Assembly: GCA_018660265.1 (NCBI GenBank)
Contig: JABJKS010000089.1
Span: 124,001 to 188,000, forward strand
From: Rhodospirillaceae bacterium
GTDB lineage: Bacteria; Pseudomonadota; Alphaproteobacteria; GCA-2731375
DNA: 64,000 nucleotides
Direction: 5' to 3'
Each line of letters begins with the position of its first letter. Position 1 is the stretch's first letter. Position numbers and translations under genes: made by a program. The notes beneath the pieces are model-generated. The model saw nothing but the letters and a program-made list of their open reading frames with translations, was not told the origin of the DNA and searched no databases. This document shows positions 9,220-27,183 of this stretch, piece after piece.

Positions 9220-10110
9220 TTGAACCAGGATAGCGCCGACCCGGAAACGCCTGCGCCTCATTTGTTCGGTGCGGCCTTGTGGATGCTGGGGGCGGTGGTG
9301 TCATTTTCCACCATGGCTGTGGCCGGACGTGAGGTTTTCAAGGAACTGGACGTCTATCAATTGATGTTCTATCGCAGCGGCATCGGCCTCGTCATGGTGC
9401 TGATCTACGCCAGCCTTACTAAAAACGGTTTTCGCCATTTCAGGACCAAGCGCCTAAAACTGCATTTCGTCCGCAATATGATCCATCTTGTAGGCCAGTT
9501 CGGCTGGTTCCTTGCCCTGGGCCTGATCCCTCTGGCGCAATTGTTCGCGTTGGAGTTCACGACGCCATTGTGGATTGCCGTTCTGGCACCGTTCCTATTG
9601 GGGGAGAGGTTAACGAAGACCCGCCTGCTTGCTGTCATCCTGGGGTTTTGCGGTGTCATGGTGGTCCTCCGCCCAGGCCTGGAAACCATCAACATCGGTT
9701 CGATCGCAATGCTGATCGGTTCTATCGGCTTCGCCTGCTCCATGATGGTGACCAAGCGACTGACACCGACGGAAAAGCCGATAACTATTCTGTTTTACAT
9801 GGCCCTGGTGCAAACCCCGGTGGGCCTAATGCTCGCCTTCACGCAATTACACTGGCCGGGGCTGATCACGTCGTTGTGGCTGATCCTGGTGGCAATCCTG
9901 GGCTTCACCGCGCATTTTTGCATCGTCCGCGCCATGCGCCTGGCCGATGCCATCGTCGTGGCACCAATGGATTTTCTGCGCCTGCCCTTGATCACGGCAG
10001 TTGGCATACTATTGTACAACGAACCCATCGAACTCTGGGTCCTGGCCGGTGGTGTCCTGGTCCTCCTGGGCAACTACACCAACTTGATGGCCGAACGCCG
10101 CAAGGCCTGA
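9220..10110 (+). CDS. EamA/DMT-superfamily transporter
   Basis: An integral inner-membrane protein of 296 residues with about ten hydrophobic helices and two EamA-type halves (first starting at [17 protein letters not shown], second at [20 protein letters not shown]). DMT proteins of this class export small metabolites such as amino acids, bases or S-adenosylmethionine; the substrate cannot be told. The start is a TTG at 9220, ten bases after the gltD stop, so it may be read through from gltBD; an ATG at 9215 is out of frame and stops at once. The C-terminus ends NLMAERRKA, cytoplasmic and basic. One of four DMT paralogues in the window. Confidence 0.85.
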
Positions 10111-14496: not shown

Positions 14497-15333
14497 CTAG
14501 TTGTGCCAGGGCTGCAGCACGGTCCACAAACCTTCCACCGCGCGCAACCAATCTTCCAGCCCGCGCTGCCGCGGTTCCATGATCAAGGCGTCTATGCCAG
14601 CAGCGCTATAGGCCTCCGCCATGGCTTTCAGGCTGTCATGGTCATCCTCCAACGGATCCCAAAAAACCCGCATGGAGAGGGGGAAATCCGAGCCACGTGC
14701 CGCACGCAAATCGGCCGTTATGGCGGCAATATCCTCCACCGGGACGCGGGTGCCGTGCCAACCGTCACCCATAGCCTTGGCCCGGCGCAGGGCGGGGGCG
14801 GAATTGCCGCCCACCCAAATTGGGATCTTTCGGCCCGGCTGGGGCAAGGTGCGGATACCTTCCAAAGCCGCCGTCACCACCTTAGGCTGATAGGTTATGG
14901 GGTCTTCGGTCCAGCAGGCCCGCAGGATATTGATGATATCGTCGGTCCGCGCGCCACGATCGCCAAAGGGCACGCCCATGGCGTCAAACTCCCCCTCCAT
15001 CCAGCCGACACCGGTGCCCAGGATCACCCGCCCCTCGCTCAACAGATCCAAGGTCGCAAGTTCCTTGGCCAGATGGGCCGGTGTGCGCAAGGGCAATACC
15101 AACACAGAAGTGCCCAGCTCAACCCGGGAGGTCGCCGCTGCGGCCCAGGTCAGCGTGATCAGCGGTTCATAAAAACTGGCCGATGGCGGATAAGGGGCGT
15201 CATGGGGGATCGCCAGATGATCATTGACCCAGATGCTGTCAAAGCCCAAATCCTCCGCCTGGCGGGCACCACGGCGCACCGCCTCCGGCCCGGCCTTGCG
15301 TCCGATCTGTGGAATATGAATGCCGAATTTCAT
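14497..15333 (-). CDS. LLM-class (luciferase-like) flavin-dependent oxidoreductase
   Basis: A 278-residue bacterial-luciferase-like TIM-barrel protein. The sequence pattern FGIHIPQIGRKAG at the N-terminus, DSIWVNDHLAIP, LGTSVLVLPLRTPAHLAKE and GRVILGTGVGWMEGEFDAMG is that of the probable F420-dependent subgroup (TIGR03619 type), although in proteobacteria FMN may be used. It would oxidise or reduce a small substrate. It is the first gene of the minus-strand unit with the YtcJ-like amidohydrolase, and is divergent from the selenoprotein gene across a 109-base region that must hold both promoters. That arrangement suggests joint control of the two units. Confidence 0.9.
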   Translation of the reverse strand: MKFGIHIPQIGRKAGPEAVRRGARQAEDLGFDSIWVNDHLAIPHDAPYPPSASFYEPLITLTWAAAATSRVELGTSVLVLPLRTPAHLAKELATLDLLSEGRVILGTGVGWMEGEFDAMGVPFGDRGARTDDIINILRACWTEDPITYQPKVVTAALEGIRTLPQPGRKIPIWVGGNSAPALRRAKAMGDGWHGTRVPVEDIAAITADLRAARGSDFPLSMRVFWDPLEDDHDSLKAMAEAYSAAGIDALIMEPRQRGLEDWLRAVEGLWTVLQPWHN

Positions 15334-15442: not shown

Positions 15443-17098
15443 ATGGCCCAAGACCTTATGAACCCCTGCGGCATCTTTGCCAATGAAGATGCCCCCCTGG
15501 CTGTACGTGGAAAAATGATCGGCGGCGATGACAAGGTCGTCATCGGGCTGTTTTCCAACCAAAAGGCCAATGCGGATTTATTCATGGATAACCTGGAAAA
15601 TCTGCTGGGCGCGCGCTTTGATAATGTGGAGTTTTTGCGCGGCTACAAGGCAGCCTCGGTGCCCGCAAATTTTTCCGACGAATTCCTGGACCGTTGTGAC
15701 TTCGTTGCCGCAGGCTTTGGCGATTGAGGCTCGTGCACGTCGTGGTGTATCCATGACAGCATAAAACTTGAAAATCACGGCATCGCGACAGCGACGGTCT
15801 GTAGCGATGAATTCTATTCCCTGGGCAAGGCCGAAACCCAATGTCTGGGTATGCCTGGCCTTCCCATCGCCATTGTGCCCCATCCCGTGGCCAAGCTGCT
15901 GCCGGATGAGGTCGCGGCCCTGGCGGCAAATGTGGTGGATGAAATCATCCGCCTTTGGCAAACAGATGCGGAGGATCTGCGGGCGGAGTTCAAGGACAAG
16001 GAACCCCCGGTCAAAAAACGCCTGCGCTATAAGTCCTTGTTCGAGGGTAATTTTTCCGCCCCCGATGCACCAAAGCTGATCAAAGGCCCCGATGATCTGG
16101 AGGGGGTTAACCGCCTGTTCTACAGCCGGGGCTGGACCGACGGCCTGCCCGTCATCCCGCCAACACCGGAACGCTATGAGGCTATGCTGGGCGACAGCGG
16201 TCTTGATCCGGAGCAATTGTTGGCGCTGATTGAACCGCGCCAAGGCCAGGCAACCGTCGCCAAAATTGTCATCAACGCAGTTATGGCCGGCTGTTTGCCG
16301 GAGCATCTGCCGGTTCTGTTAGCGGCAGCGAAAGCCTTGGGTCAATCCGCCCTGAACCTCAAGGCCCTGAATACCACGACCCATCCCTGCACGGTGCTGG
16401 CCTTGATCAGCGGGCCGGTCAATGACGAGATCGACGTCAACACCACCTACAACACTATGGGCCAGGGCAGTCTGGCAAACGCCGCCATTGGCCGGGCCAT
16501 TCGCTCCATATTGCTGAATGTCGGCGGTGGCACGCCGGGCATTCTGGATAGGGCCACCATGGGCACGCCTGCGAAATTCAGTTTTTGCTTTGGCGAGAAC
16601 CAGGACGAAAATCCCTGGGGCGAAACATTGGCCATGGAAAGAGGCTTCGCCGCCGATCAAAGCACCATTACCCTTTGTGGGGTTGAAGGCCCGCATAACG
16701 TCAATGACCACTATGGCAAAGGGGCGGAAGAAATCCTGCAAACAATTGGCGGTACCATGTGCTCACCGGGCCTGAACAACAGTTATCTGGGCGGAGAGAT
16801 CATGTTGGTCCTGGGCCCGGAACATGCGGAGATCATTCATAAAGACGGCTTCTCCAAGGCGGATATCAAGAATTGGCTGATCGAGAATGCGGTTATTCCG
16901 GCCCACGTACTGTCGGAACCACAACGGGTCATCATGCGCCAGTATGTTCCCGAACGCCTTTTGGCAAATGGTGATCAGGGCGCGCGCATTGCCACAACCC
17001 ATGCTGATATCCAACTGGTGGTGGCGGGCGGGGCGGGGCGGCATTCCGCCATCATACCTTCGTTCGGGAATACCCGTGCTGTAACAGAGGTGATTTAG
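15443..17098 (+). CDS. UGSC-family selenoprotein (in-frame UGA = selenocysteine 95)
   Basis: One continuous frame from the ATG at 15443 (GAGAGG upstream) to the stop at 17098 is broken only by TGA at 15725-15727. Read as Sec, it gives 551 residues with the motif GFGD-Sec95-G-S-Cys98-T-S-W-Cys102, the signature of the UGSC family, in which Sec or Cys occupies this site. The 41 codons after the TGA continue the same domain (HDSIKLENHGIATATV). A SECIS-like hairpin sits at 15739-15757. The N-terminal UGSC domain covers about residues 1-210; a second, larger domain follows (RLFYSRGWTDGLPVIPPT to the end, with NTTTHPCTVLAL). The Sec-x2-Cys pair suggests redox chemistry; the true reaction is unknown. 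A PhnD-like gene follows four bases later. A caller that treats TGA as stop would report two fragments, 15443-15727 and 15851-17098. Confidence 0.92.
15739..15757 (+). promoter_or_regulatory. Bacterial SECIS-like hairpin of the UGSC gene
   Basis: GTCGTGG (15739-15745) pairs over all seven positions, one of them G-U, with CCATGAC (15751-15757) around the loop TGTAT (15746-15750). The stem starts 11 bases after the UGA and the apical loop lies about 19 bases from it, within the usual spacing for SelB recognition. The loop contains the GU expected in bacterial SECIS elements. GC/GC pairs (15735-15736 with 15759-15760) can extend the base. Confidence 0.8.
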
Positions 17099-17102
17099 CG
17101 CC

Positions 17103-17918
17103 ATGTGCTCCATGCGACTAGCAGGACTGACCATGTATGACCTGGACCCGGTGCGGGCGGCGACGGATGCCTGGTGGGCCGGTTTGGCCAGGGCCTGCCG
17201 GGCGGAGGGGATCCGGGAGGTACCCGATACATTGTGGCGCGGCGGGCCCCGGGAAGATCTATGGCAATCCCCGGATCTGATGATCTCCCAAACCTGCGGC
17301 TATCCATTGTTGAAGCATTTCACCTCTCATCTGACCTTGCTGGCCACGCCTATCTATGGTGCGGACGGCTGCTATGGCCCGAACTATTGCTCCCTGATCG
17401 TCGTCAACGCAGACAACCCGGCCCGGACATTGGACGATCTGCGCGGTGGCATCTGCGCCATCAACGATTGGGATTCCCAATCGGGCATGAACGTCCTGCG
17501 CCATACCATCGCGCCGTTGGCCAAAGACGGGCGGTTCTTTGCCGAGGTAAAGGTGGCGGGAAAGCATCAATTTTCCGTTGCCATGATTGCCCGGGGGGAA
17601 GCGGACGTGGCCGCAATTGATTGCGTCACCCACGGCCTGATGGCCCGCCACGATCCAAGCTCCGTCGAGGGCACGCGGGTCCTGGCCCAAACCCAGGCCG
17701 CCCCCGCCCTGCCCTATGTCACGGGCAAGCAAACGATCGGGCGAGAACGCAAACGCCTGCGTGCCGCCCTGGACCGCGCCATGGCAGACCCGGATCTGGC
17801 CGAAGCGCGGGACGCATTGATGATCAAGGGCTTCGCCGATCTGGCCCTGCGGGACTACCAGGTGATGCTGGAAATGGAAAAGGCGGCGGCAGAGGCTGGT
17901 TATCCGGATCTGAACTGA
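17103..17918 (+). CDS. PhnD/SsuA-like periplasmic-binding-fold protein
   Basis: A 271-residue protein with the PhnD-type ligand-binding fold: MYDLDPVRAATDAWWAGLA, then DLMISQTCGYPL, then ADNPARTLDDLRGGICAIND and HQFSVAMIARGEADVAAIDCVTHGL, all typical of phosphate/phosphonate-type substrate-binding proteins. No signal peptide is present, unlike a true transporter component, and no permease or ATPase is nearby, so it may act in the cytoplasm as a binding protein or enzyme. The start at 17103 has GAGG 12 bases upstream; Met5 or Met11 are alternatives. It lies four bases after the UGSC selenoprotein gene and is almost certainly cotranscribed with it. The ligand is unknown. Confidence 0.82.
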   Translation: MCSMRLAGLTMYDLDPVRAATDAWWAGLARACRAEGIREVPDTLWRGGPREDLWQSPDLMISQTCGYPLLKHFTSHLTLLATPIYGADGCYGPNYCSLIVVNADNPARTLDDLRGGICAINDWDSQSGMNVLRHTIAPLAKDGRFFAEVKVAGKHQFSVAMIARGEADVAAIDCVTHGLMARHDPSSVEGTRVLAQTQAAPALPYVTGKQTIGRERKRLRAALDRAMADPDLAEARDALMIKGFADLALRDYQVMLEMEKAAAEAGYPDLN

Positions 17919-18581: not shown

Positions 18582-18657
18582 CGCGCAGTTGAGGGCTTTA
18601 ACGCCGACGCCATAAATATGGTCGCGAGTGGCAATCCGCTACGGCTATGATGTCGTC

Positions 18658-20256
18658 ATGACCCTGTTTGATTACATCATCGTTGGCGGCGGCTCCGCCG
18701 GTTGTGTATTGGCCGGTCGCCTGACGGAAGATCCCAATCTACGGGTCTGCTTGTTGGAGGCCGGGCCACAGGACACCTCCCCCTTCATTAAGGCACCTTT
18801 GGGAATTGGGGCAACGGTGCCCGGCAAATACTTAAATTGGGCCTTTCAGACAACACCGCAAACCGGGCTGAACGGGCGGCGGGGCTATCAACCTCGGGGC
18901 AAGGTCCTGGGTGGGTCATCCGCCATCAACGCCATGATTTATACCCGCGGTCACGCCTGGGACTATGATCATTGGGCAGCGTTGGGCAATCCCGGCTGGT
19001 CCTTTGCCGACGTGCTGCCCTATTTCAAGGCATCCCAAAATCAGGAAAGAAACCGAGATCTGGGCGGGGACGATTACCACGGTATTGGCGGTCCACTGAA
19101 CGTCGCCGATCTGCGCAGTCCCAACCCCCTGGCCCAGGCCTTCGTCGATGCGGGTGCGGAAATACAGCTACCCCGAAATGACGATTTCAACGGGCCGGAG
19201 CAGGAGGGTGTGGGCTCGTATCAGGTCACCCAAATTGGTGGCGAGCGCTGCTCCGCTGCCCGGGCCTACCTGGACCCTGCCCGGCAACGGGACAATTTAT
19301 CAATCCTGACCGGTGCCTATGCCACGAAAATCATACTGGAGGGCAAACGCGCCGTCGGCGTGACCTATGAACAGAATAGCCGGATGGGGGAGGTCCGGGC
19401 CGGGCGCGACGTCATTCTTTCGGCAGGCGCCTTTCAGTCGCCGCAGTTATTACTGCTGTCGGGCATCGGGCCCGGCGCGGAGCTGCAACGGCATGGCATC
19501 GCCATAGCCCATGAATTGCCCGGTGTGGGACAGAACCTGCAAGACCATATTGATATCGTACTGCCCTATCTCTCACCCTCGCCCTATGCCATGGGCCTGA
19601 CGCCGGGGGGGATCGCCAGGTTGATCAAGGGGATCTTTGAATGGCGGCGGACGCGCACCGGCATCATCACTTCCAACTCCACGGAAACCGGCGGCTTCGT
19701 GAAAAGCCGGGCCGATCTGGCCATCCCCGATCTACAACTGCATTTTAATGCAGCCATCGTCGACGATCATACCCGCAAGCGTCATTATCATCGCGGCTAT
19801 TGTGCCCATGTCTGTGTCCTGCGCCCGAAAAGCCGTGGCACCATCTGCCTGAACAACTCCGACCCAAAGGCCCCGCCCCGGATTGATCCGAATTTCCTAG
19901 GCGAGCGCGAGGACCTGGACGGCCTGGTGGCGGGCTATAAACTGACCCGCCGCATTCTGGAAGCCCCTGCCCTTGCGCCATATCGCGGCCGGGAACTTCT
20001 GACCACAGATGTGCAGACCGACGACCAGATCATCGAAGACATTCGCAATCGCGCCGACACCATCTATCACCCCGTGGGCACCGCCAAAATGGGCCCGGAC
20101 GCCATGGCCGTGGTGGATAGCCAGCTACGTGTTCATGGCATGGATGGCCTGCGCGTTATCGATGCCTCCATCATGCCCACACTGATCGGCGGCAACACCA
20201 ACGCACCAACAATCATGATCGCGGAAAAAGCAGCGGCGGCTCTCCGCGCAAAGTAA
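18658..20256 (+). CDS. GMC-family FAD-dependent oxidoreductase (choline dehydrogenase-like)
   Basis: A glucose-methanol-choline oxidoreductase of 532 residues that oxidises an alcohol with FAD. The FAD dinucleotide fold YIIVGGGSAGCVLAGRL lies at the very N-terminus, which supports the start at 18658 over one ten codons upstream. Next come the GMC signature region (RGKVLGGSSAINAMIYTRG) and FQSPQLLLLSGIGP. The C-terminal catalytic region is DTIYHPVGTAKMG, with the conserved His, and NTNAPTIMIAEKAA. It resembles BetA and AlkJ types; the substrate alcohol is not defined. No BetB or BetI is nearby, so choline oxidation to betaine is not supported. It probably acts at the inner membrane face, passing electrons to quinone. 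Confidence 0.9.
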   Translation: MTLFDYIIVGGGSAGCVLAGRLTEDPNLRVCLLEAGPQDTSPFIKAPLGIGATVPGKYLNWAFQTTPQTGLNGRRGYQPRGKVLGGSSAINAMIYTRGHAWDYDHWAALGNPGWSFADVLPYFKASQNQERNRDLGGDDYHGIGGPLNVADLRSPNPLAQAFVDAGAEIQLPRNDDFNGPEQEGVGSYQVTQIGGERCSAARAYLDPARQRDNLSILTGAYATKIILEGKRAVGVTYEQNSRMGEVRAGRDVILSAGAFQSPQLLLLSGIGPGAELQRHGIAIAHELPGVGQNLQDHIDIVLPYLSPSPYAMGLTPGGIARLIKGIFEWRRTRTGIITSNSTETGGFVKSRADLAIPDLQLHFNAAIVDDHTRKRHYHRGYCAHVCVLRPKSRGTICLNNSDPKAPPRIDPNFLGEREDLDGLVAGYKLTRRILEAPALAPYRGRELLTTDVQTDDQIIEDIRNRADTIYHPVGTAKMGPDAMAVVDSQLRVHGMDGLRVIDASIMPTLIGGNTNAPTIMIAEKAAAALRAK

Positions 20257-25407: not shown

Positions 25408-27183
25408 TCACGATAGCTCTTCCAATTCATCAATGAAGCGTTCGATGACGCCTAGGCCCTGCTGCCAGAATTCAGGGTCGGCGGCATCCAATCCGAATGG
25501 TGCCAGAAGTTCACGATGCCGCAAACTGCCGCCCGCGCGCAACATATCAAGATACTTTTCGGCGAAACCCTCATGTGCATCCTGATAAACAGCATATAGA
25601 GAGTTCACGAGGCAATCGCCAAAAGCATATGCATAAACATAAAACGGCGAATGAATGAAATGCGGGATATAGCACCAATAGTTGGCATATTCGGGATGCA
25701 GGCGAATGGCCGGGCCCAGGCTCTCGCCCTGCACGGCCATCCAGATCTCGCCTATTCGTTCAACCGACAGCTCCCCCTGCCGCCGTTCATTATGCAAGCG
25801 TCTTTCGAAATCATAGAAAGCGATCTGGCGCACGACAGTGTTCAACATATCCTCTGTCTTGCCCGCCAACATGGCCTTGCGCCGGGTAGGATCAGCTTCG
25901 CTGTCCAGCATGGCGCGAAAGGTCAATTGCTCGCCAAACACGCTCGCCGTCTCGGCCAGGGTCAGGGGCGTATCGGCCATCAGGGCACCCTGCCCGGCAG
26001 CCAGAACCTGGTGCACGCCATGGCCCAGCTCGTGCGCCAGCGTCATCACATCCCGGGTCCGGCCCTGGTAGTTCAACAATAGATAGGGATGCGCCGATGG
26101 CACCGTCGGGTGGGCAAAGGCACCACCGGATTTGCCGGGCACTGACGGCGCATCAATCCAGTCATTATCAAAAAAGCGCTGACCTACCTCCCGCAAGACG
26201 GGTGAGAAGCGGCCATAGGCATCGAGCACCTGATCCTGGGCCACTTGAAAACTTATGGTCTGCTGGTCCTCGTTAGGCAGCGGTGCATTACGGTCCCAGT
26301 AATCCAAAGCCTCGACCCCGAACCACTTCGCTTTCAGGGCATAATAGCGGTGGGAGAGGCGCGGGTAGGCTGCTGTAACCGCCTCTGCCAGGGCATCCAC
26401 AACCTCGTCTTCCACAAGATTGGATAAATGCCGGGCACTGTCCGGCCTGGCAAACTTGCGCCACTTATCCTCAATCTCCTTGTCCTTGGCCAGTGTATTG
26501 GTGATCAGGGCGAACAAGCCCTTTTGCTGATCAAATCCGGCACCCAATGCCTTGGCCGCCGCCTTGCGTTGTGCCCCATCAGCTTCAGACAACAGATGCA
26601 GGGTCTGCTCCAATGACAGATCGGCATCCGCGCCCTCAGGTGAAAACCGCATATCAGCCATGGTCTCATCAAATAGACGATTCCATGCTGCCCGCCCCGT
26701 GACCTGTTTTTCGTGCAGCAATTGCTCCTGCTCATCAGCCAACTGATGCGGGCGGGCGGCACGCACATCCCGCAACCAGGGAGAAAAGTGCGCCAGGGAG
26801 GGTTCTGCCGCCAACAAGGCCGCGAACGCCGCATCCTCAATTCGGTTCAACTCCAACGTGAAAAAAATCAATTTTGTGGTGATCTCGCTCAACCGTTCCA
26901 TGGTGGTTTGATAAAACCGGCCCACCTCACGATCAGCTATATTGGCCGCGTGATACAATTGGGCATAGCTGGCGATCCGGCCCAGGAAATCCTCATCCCG
27001 CTCGTAGCGCTGAATGGCCCGGGCAAGATCCGCCGCAGATAAAGTCCCAACTTTGCCCGCGAAATCCCCGTTAAATTGCTCTGCCGCCGTGGCAGCCTTG
27101 TCCAAATCCGCTGCCAAATCCGCAGCATCCGGGCCGCTATAAAGATCGCTCAAATCCCAGCGCGGCAAATTCCCCAGTTTCAT
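25408..27183 (-). CDS. pepF: Oligoendopeptidase F (M3 family metallopeptidase)
   Basis: A cytosolic zinc metallopeptidase of the M3B group, 591 residues, that trims short peptides. The zinc motif HELGHGVHQ lies near residue 384, followed about 28 residues later by the third-ligand region LAETASVFGEQL. The N-terminus (RWDLSDLYSGPDAADLAADL) is typical of the PepF/M3 family. The C-terminal FYVYAYAFGDCLVNSLYAVY segment is the conserved region that holds the catalytic Tyr/His residues. It is divergent from the NtrC-type regulator gene across 92 bases. Confidence in class is high; natural substrates are unknown. Confidence 0.95.
   Translation of the reverse strand: MKLGNLPRWDLSDLYSGPDAADLAADLDKAATAAEQFNGDFAGKVGTLSAADLARAIQRYERDEDFLGRIASYAQLYHAANIADREVGRFYQTTMERLSEITTKLIFFTLELNRIEDAAFAALLAAEPSLAHFSPWLRDVRAARPHQLADEQEQLLHEKQVTGRAAWNRLFDETMADMRFSPEGADADLSLEQTLHLLSEADGAQRKAAAKALGAGFDQQKGLFALITNTLAKDKEIEDKWRKFARPDSARHLSNLVEDEVVDALAEAVTAAYPRLSHRYYALKAKWFGVEALDYWDRNAPLPNEDQQTISFQVAQDQVLDAYGRFSPVLREVGQRFFDNDWIDAPSVPGKSGGAFAHPTVPSAHPYLLLNYQGRTRDVMTLAHELGHGVHQVLAAGQGALMADTPLTLAETASVFGEQLTFRAMLDSEADPTRRKAMLAGKTEDMLNTVVRQIAFYDFERRLHNERRQGELSVERIGEIWMAVQGESLGPAIRLHPEYANYWCYIPHFIHSPFYVYAYAFGDCLVNSLYAVYQDAHEGFAEKYLDMLRAGGSLRHRELLAPFGLDAADPEFWQQGLGVIERFIDELEELS

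Follow-up and report, generated by a model that had tools for sequence, protein, structure and literature searches.

Analysis of a 64,000-nucleotide stretch of Rhodospirillaceae DNA (hereafter the window) identified, at positions 15443–17098 of the forward strand, a gene whose product we judge from sequence comparison to be a selenoprotein (probability about 0.98). Its 551 residues, including a predicted selenocysteine (Sec95), join a UGSC domain (A) to an unannotated partner domain, designated B. The UGSC selenoprotein family and its fusion with a domain termed Unknown_1 are already known from a 2008 survey (PMC2398784); Unknown_1 may be identical to B. What appears to be new is (i) the near-obligate association with B, (ii) the unannotated and possibly new fold of this domain, (iii) the thioredoxin modules and (iv) a kinship with GrdB/PrdB at the profile level. 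The partner domain, the thioredoxin modules and this kinship turn an orphan selenoprotein, whose role is still listed among the uncharacterised ones in a 2026 review (PMC13188914), into a testable enzyme hypothesis.

The initial annotation had described one frame running from the ATG at 15443 to the stop at 17098, with a TGA at 15725–15727 as its sole interruption, flanked by GFGD-[TGA]-GSCTSWCIHD and followed by 41 stop-free codons before the next Met. Retranslation agreed with both statements. The 551-residue translation, preceded by a plausible ribosome-binding site (AGAGGAA) and closed by a TAG at 17096–17098, contains a single internal TGA at residue 95, followed by Cys98 in the motif U-G-S-C, and codons 96–136 are open as far as Met137 (15851). 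The expectation that standard annotation would yield two broken genes was also borne out: an ordinary ORF caller split the region into ORFs of 94 and 415 aa. The protein had been called hidden, which is true of naive ORF calling, but not of the family, which has already been catalogued.

Translated through the UGA, the protein matches PF24696 (E = 5e-41; 141 bits, cut-off 25) over residues ~7–173 and scores 136.9 bits against NF041046, above the curated cut-off of 125. Domain A (15461–15961, forward strand), defined by these profile matches and by a structure model and fold search, agrees with the UGSC family as it appears in these profiles and in the 2008 survey (PMC2398784) in its domain, the position of Sec, the UxxC motif and a large excess of Sec over Cys forms. 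At the locus studied the motif reads D-U-G-S-C-T-S-W-C. Its first position is occupied by Sec or Cys in 88 of 88 aligned UGSC homologues, exactly as had been claimed for residue 95. Among 89 scorable UGSC genes (compared loci, source genome included) 85 carry TGA and four a Cys codon, and all six UGSC paralogues of the source genome share the TGA. Natural Cys forms occur in Natrialba asiatica (L058) and Sphingomonas (L073), and a UGA form in Vineibacter terrae (L108). In a class-wide sample UGSC was found in 38 of 385 genomes, nearly always with TGA; all but five of the approximately 100 matches listed contain one TGA. The homologue alignment proposed in the initial annotation thus revealed genes that are not split at the UGA, but have UGA there or, in a few cases, Cys. 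In the GOS ocean metagenome survey of 2008, UGSC is represented by 255 Sec and 21 Cys forms and ranks fifth by number among the selenoprotein families tabulated (PMC2398784).

A bacterial SECIS element, whose presence after the UGA had been named as a check, was located at 15739–15757 (forward strand), 14 nt downstream of the first UGA base. It is a hairpin with a 7-bp stem (GUCGUGG/CCAUGAC) and the loop UGUAU (15746–15750), a G opening the loop, and the 45-nt stretch that contains it has a predicted folding energy of −14.5 kcal/mol (z = −2.2). Hairpins fitting the bacterial SECIS rules (our own implementation) occur in 84 of 85 Sec homologues. Since three of the four Cys homologues likewise yield some hairpin, a fit to these rules does not discriminate by itself, and covariation carries more weight. 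Across 29 diverse sequences the stem cells are paired in 90.6% of cases, with two-sided changes in five of the seven pairs; such changes affect 13 cells, compared to 3.6±1.5 in shuffles (0 of 500 as high), although the stem overlaps conserved codons, so that part of its conservation is coding, and the shuffles ignore relatedness. The signal was lost when the partner strand of the stem was slid. Of 84 sequences, 67 have AGT as the loop codon and 11 have TGT, a bias to be expected where RNA structure restricts the choice of serine codon and the protein does not. A search of the whole window against Rfam at gathering thresholds gave no match.

The source genome, a 5.55 Mb draft in 121 contigs (97% complete), contains a tRNA-Sec gene (selC) with anticodon TCA, a gene for SelB with selA immediately adjoining, and two selD genes, one of which encodes a SelD with its own in-frame TGA. 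The Sec machinery predicted for the host is therefore present. The second SelD (C97:58106, locus L039) has no TGA and lies within a 787-aa open frame, a length consistent with reported Ndh-SelD fusions. In this host, SelB and tRNA-Sec would decode the UGA at 15725 as Sec, guided by the hairpin downstream.

Comparison of codons 96–136 with those of two close homologues gave dN 0.10 and dS 2.8 (against locus L042, where this dS is saturated), and dN 0.03 and dS 0.67. The resulting dN/dS of ~0.04–0.05 points to constraint similar to or stronger than that on the remaining gene, and thus indicates that the 41-codon stretch preceding Met137 is translated. This bears directly on the possibility that two separate genes are present, one for a 94-aa product ending at the UGA and one for a 415-aa protein starting at Met137 (15851), which are exactly the ORFs returned by the standard caller. 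These constrained codons would belong to neither product, the division would fall in the middle of the UGSC domain, and the UGA is kept at this codon in 85 homologues, together with a SECIS hairpin, in a host with complete Sec machinery; we therefore consider two genes very improbable. The draft state of the genome (121 contigs) might suggest that the TGA is an error of sequencing or assembly, or else a nonsense mutation of recent origin; both are practically ruled out by the identical TGA in six paralogues and scores of independent genomes and by purifying selection past the codon. Reassignment of the genetic code was also ruled out, since TGA ends other genes of the window, such as 9220–10110, 17103–17918 and 25408–27183, neighbouring ones among them. 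The interpretation as a real selenoprotein of 551 residues, put forward in the initial annotation, is thus upheld by the PF24696/NF041046 matches, the SECIS covariation and the selection acting beyond the UGA, and sequence evidence could not make a stronger case for Sec at residue 95.

The product had further been treated as a single UGSC protein. This description fits residues 1–173, but residues 208–551 (16064–17095, forward strand) form a distinct fused partner domain, B, that had been overlooked. B matched no Pfam and no NCBIfam family, a sequence search of the PDB detected no relative, and a PHROGs search gave no match. Its structure was modelled with high confidence (pLDDT 96.5, pTM 0.93), and a fold search of the PDB with this model produced no convincing match (best E 3e-3, TM ~0.2); the matches to class I fumarase and cyclic amide hydrolase were rejected as weak and probably meaningless. 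Residues D233, G234, A282, G283, G324, P325, N346, G350, R351, E385 and G529 do not vary among 83 B sequences, and 98% of these have C284; judged from the alignment, this set looks like an active site.

All eight B copies of the source genome adjoin or are fused to its six UGSC genes. With B as the query, more than 580 relatives were detected in GTDB genomes, and nearly all of the best 80 loci have an adjacent UGSC gene. Conversely, at loci found via UGSC alone, B lies within 1.5 kb or is fused in 34 of 35 cases (six of the 34 being from the source genome). Approximately 30 fusions have the order A-B, as in the window, and the reverse order B-A, with a UGGC motif, was found in a Chloroflexi genome (L082, 8004–9596). 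An AlphaFold2 model of the whole window fusion reached pLDDT 89.7 and pTM 0.90. Because adjacency is near-universal and fusions occur in both orders, A and B are very probably two subunits of one enzyme that form a functional complex, and we infer that they bind each other. The partner is thus near-universal in the loci compared, rather than the occasional fusion described in the 2008 survey (PMC2398784). Annotation of B could label hundreds of genes at once.

Several loci depart from the usual arrangement. In two of them (L101, 5096–5623; L107, 6032–6484) B is fused to UGSC-like domains without the Sec/Cys motif (CDQGVTQNC and TGEGGNPT, respectively), which are perhaps non-catalytic paralogues. 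In four others (L113, L115 from Poribacteria, L097 and L048) no UGSC was detected in the flanking DNA examined, and B may sometimes act without A. Tandem arrays of two or three B paralogues next to one UGSC gene (L111, 6034–9056; L027, 7494–9832; L028, 9907–12185) suggest B hetero-oligomers.

The AlphaFold2 model of domain A (pLDDT mostly >90) has a parallel alpha/beta, flavodoxin-like architecture, and the Trx-like fold proposed in the 2008 survey (PMC2398784) was rejected on this basis. Foldseek with the fusion model gave weak best matches, to AzoR and flavodoxins (E 2e-4 to 1e-3). The likeness to these proteins is one of fold only: UGSC differs in having Sec at the start of a helix, TM-scores are low and there is no evidence of flavin binding.

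A probable distant relationship was indicated by profile comparison. GrdB and PrdB are homologous UxxC-type selenoproteins, and glycine reduction is linked to thioredoxin (PMC13188914). Alignment by hhalign of 85 UGSC domains with 22 PF07355-type proteins, which are alphaproteobacterial and not the biochemically characterised clostridial ones, gave P 9e-7 and a probability of 91% over ~66–100 columns around Sec, with Sec placed on Sec and the L/E-x-x-G-I-P-T-V segment behind it likewise in register. Controls were run on a smaller alignment, for which P was 5e-5, compared to best values of 0.07 with shuffled, 0.35 with reversed and 0.013 with 60 unrelated proteins. The UGSC catalytic region is thus probably a distant homologue of that of GrdB/PrdB, which does not amount to membership of PF07355; PF24696 was the sole Pfam match of the window protein, and none to PF07355 was obtained. 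No mention of a link between UGSC and GrdB/PrdB was found in the literature searched on UGSC selenoproteins, an absence that is not proof of novelty.

UGSC shares with GrdB/PrdB (PF07355, TIGR04483) the UxxC Sec motif and the E-x-x-G-I-P-T-V segment downstream, and resembles them in having a partner subunit and probably in thioredoxin-linked chemistry. In contrast, the UGSC domain is shorter (~175 aa). Where the GrdB UxxCxxC motif has its third Cys, UGSC usually has Ser. In the comparison of this motif the first Cys is present in 86 of 88 UGSC sequences and the third in 13 of 88, at +7 rather than +6. The absence of any Pfam or NCBIfam match for B also means that it has no detectable similarity to the pyruvoyl partner subunit of glycine/proline reductase.

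Thioredoxin-type modules accompany UGSC-B at a minority of loci; the window locus has neither a thioredoxin fusion nor a thioredoxin-reductase-like neighbour. In two of the six UGSC-B sets of the source genome the B gene encodes an N-terminal CxxC thioredoxin domain, with weak but consistent matches to TIGR01068 (E ~1e-5) and to PDB thioredoxins (E 2e-3). B proteins with an N-terminal CxxC thioredoxin-like domain are encoded at L025 (3434–4867) and L026 (10119–11612), in both cases just upstream of a UGSC gene that stands alone. A thioredoxin-reductase-like gene lies 12–19 bp from UGSC-B at L028 (source genome) and L117 (Reyranella); the matches of these genes to TIGR01292 (E 3e-69 and 5e-46) fall below the equivalog cut-off of the model.

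Recurrent neighbours of UGSC-B include TctC and SBP5 transporters, CoA-transferases, MmgE/PrpD and DUF6282, among others, and paralogous sets also lie beside genes for dehydratases, oxidoreductases and solute-binding proteins. Since these neighbours agree on no single pathway, no substrate is named. The multiple paralogous sets with varied neighbours suggest substrate-specific catabolic enzymes.

On balance we slightly favour a Sec reductase of two components that thioredoxin recharges, with Sec95 attacking a small organic substrate held by B. B would bind and activate the substrate via its invariant Asp, Asn, Arg and Glu. The selenolate of Sec95, at the helix start of the flavodoxin-like domain, would attack the substrate or take over a leaving group; Cys98 would free the product by forming a selenenyl-sulfide, which NADPH, thioredoxin reductase and thioredoxin would then reduce, restoring the selenol. 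The logic would be that of glycine/proline reductase with a different partner subunit, and the several paralogous A-B sets of a genome, in different catabolic neighbourhoods, would act on different substrates. Taken separately, recharging of the reductase by thioredoxin is a reasonably likely element of this scheme, and bond cleavage of the GrdB/PrdB type is plausible at somewhat less than even odds. Such an enzyme could account for the rarity of Sec-to-Cys replacement in UGSC.

The UxxC motif and the thioredoxin and thioredoxin-reductase associations would also suit a general thiol or peroxide oxidoreductase (thioredoxin- or peroxidase-like), in which the Sec95-Cys98 pair shuttles electrons and B has a docking or regulatory role; the Trx-like fold suggested in the 2008 survey (PMC2398784) points the same way. 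We regard this as unlikely, as the model predicts a flavodoxin-like and not a thioredoxin-like fold, B is conserved to the degree of an enzyme active site, and paralogues beside different catabolic genes and transporters are a better fit to substrate-specific enzymes than to a housekeeping reductase. Less probable still is a metal- or metalloid-handling protein, in which B would be a cofactor domain and Sec and Cys would bind an organometal or cleave it: Sec-mediated metal binding has been proposed for other selenoprotein families (PMC13188914) and flavodoxin-like folds can support varied chemistry, but no metal-transport or resistance genes recur by UGSC-B in the clusters examined, and a metal-site signature was not detected in B. 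Returning to the thioredoxin-recharged reductase, we tentatively propose, at odds below even, that UGSC-B may represent a widespread, unrecognised class of two-component Sec reductases, sister to glycine/proline reductase, whose substrate-activating subunit (B, possibly of new fold) is of a new type. The class would have radiated into several substrate-specific paralogues within single aquatic and soil bacteria, and dedicated thioredoxin modules would recharge it.

In the window, the selenoprotein gene is followed, 4 bp past its stop, by a gene on the same strand (17103–17918) for a PhnD-like, phosphonate-binding-type protein, and co-transcription of the two is possible. No homologue of this gene was found in the neighbourhoods compared. 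Its product has no obvious signal peptide, which is unusual for a periplasmic binding protein. A GMC oxidoreductase gene lies further downstream (18628–20256, forward strand), and its homologue directly follows the orthologous fusion at L042. The divergent upstream neighbour (14497–15333, reverse strand) encodes a luciferase-like oxidoreductase (F420-type, TIGR03619).

Five more GrdB/PrdB-like genes with an in-frame TGA (U-P-[V/L]-C) were detected in the source genome (C84:38634, C51:156194, C31:108418, C7:1931 and C4:38175; loci L122, L123, L125, L126 and L127), some of them near genes for CoA-transferase, acyl-CoA dehydrogenase or acyl-CoA ligase. With the six UGSC genes and one SelD, this bacterium has at least 12 Sec genes and is selenoprotein-rich. 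The PF07355 matches contain no stops and end at the end of the profile, just before the Sec codon; the Pfam GRDB model thus apparently breaks off at the UGA and omits the catalytic part.
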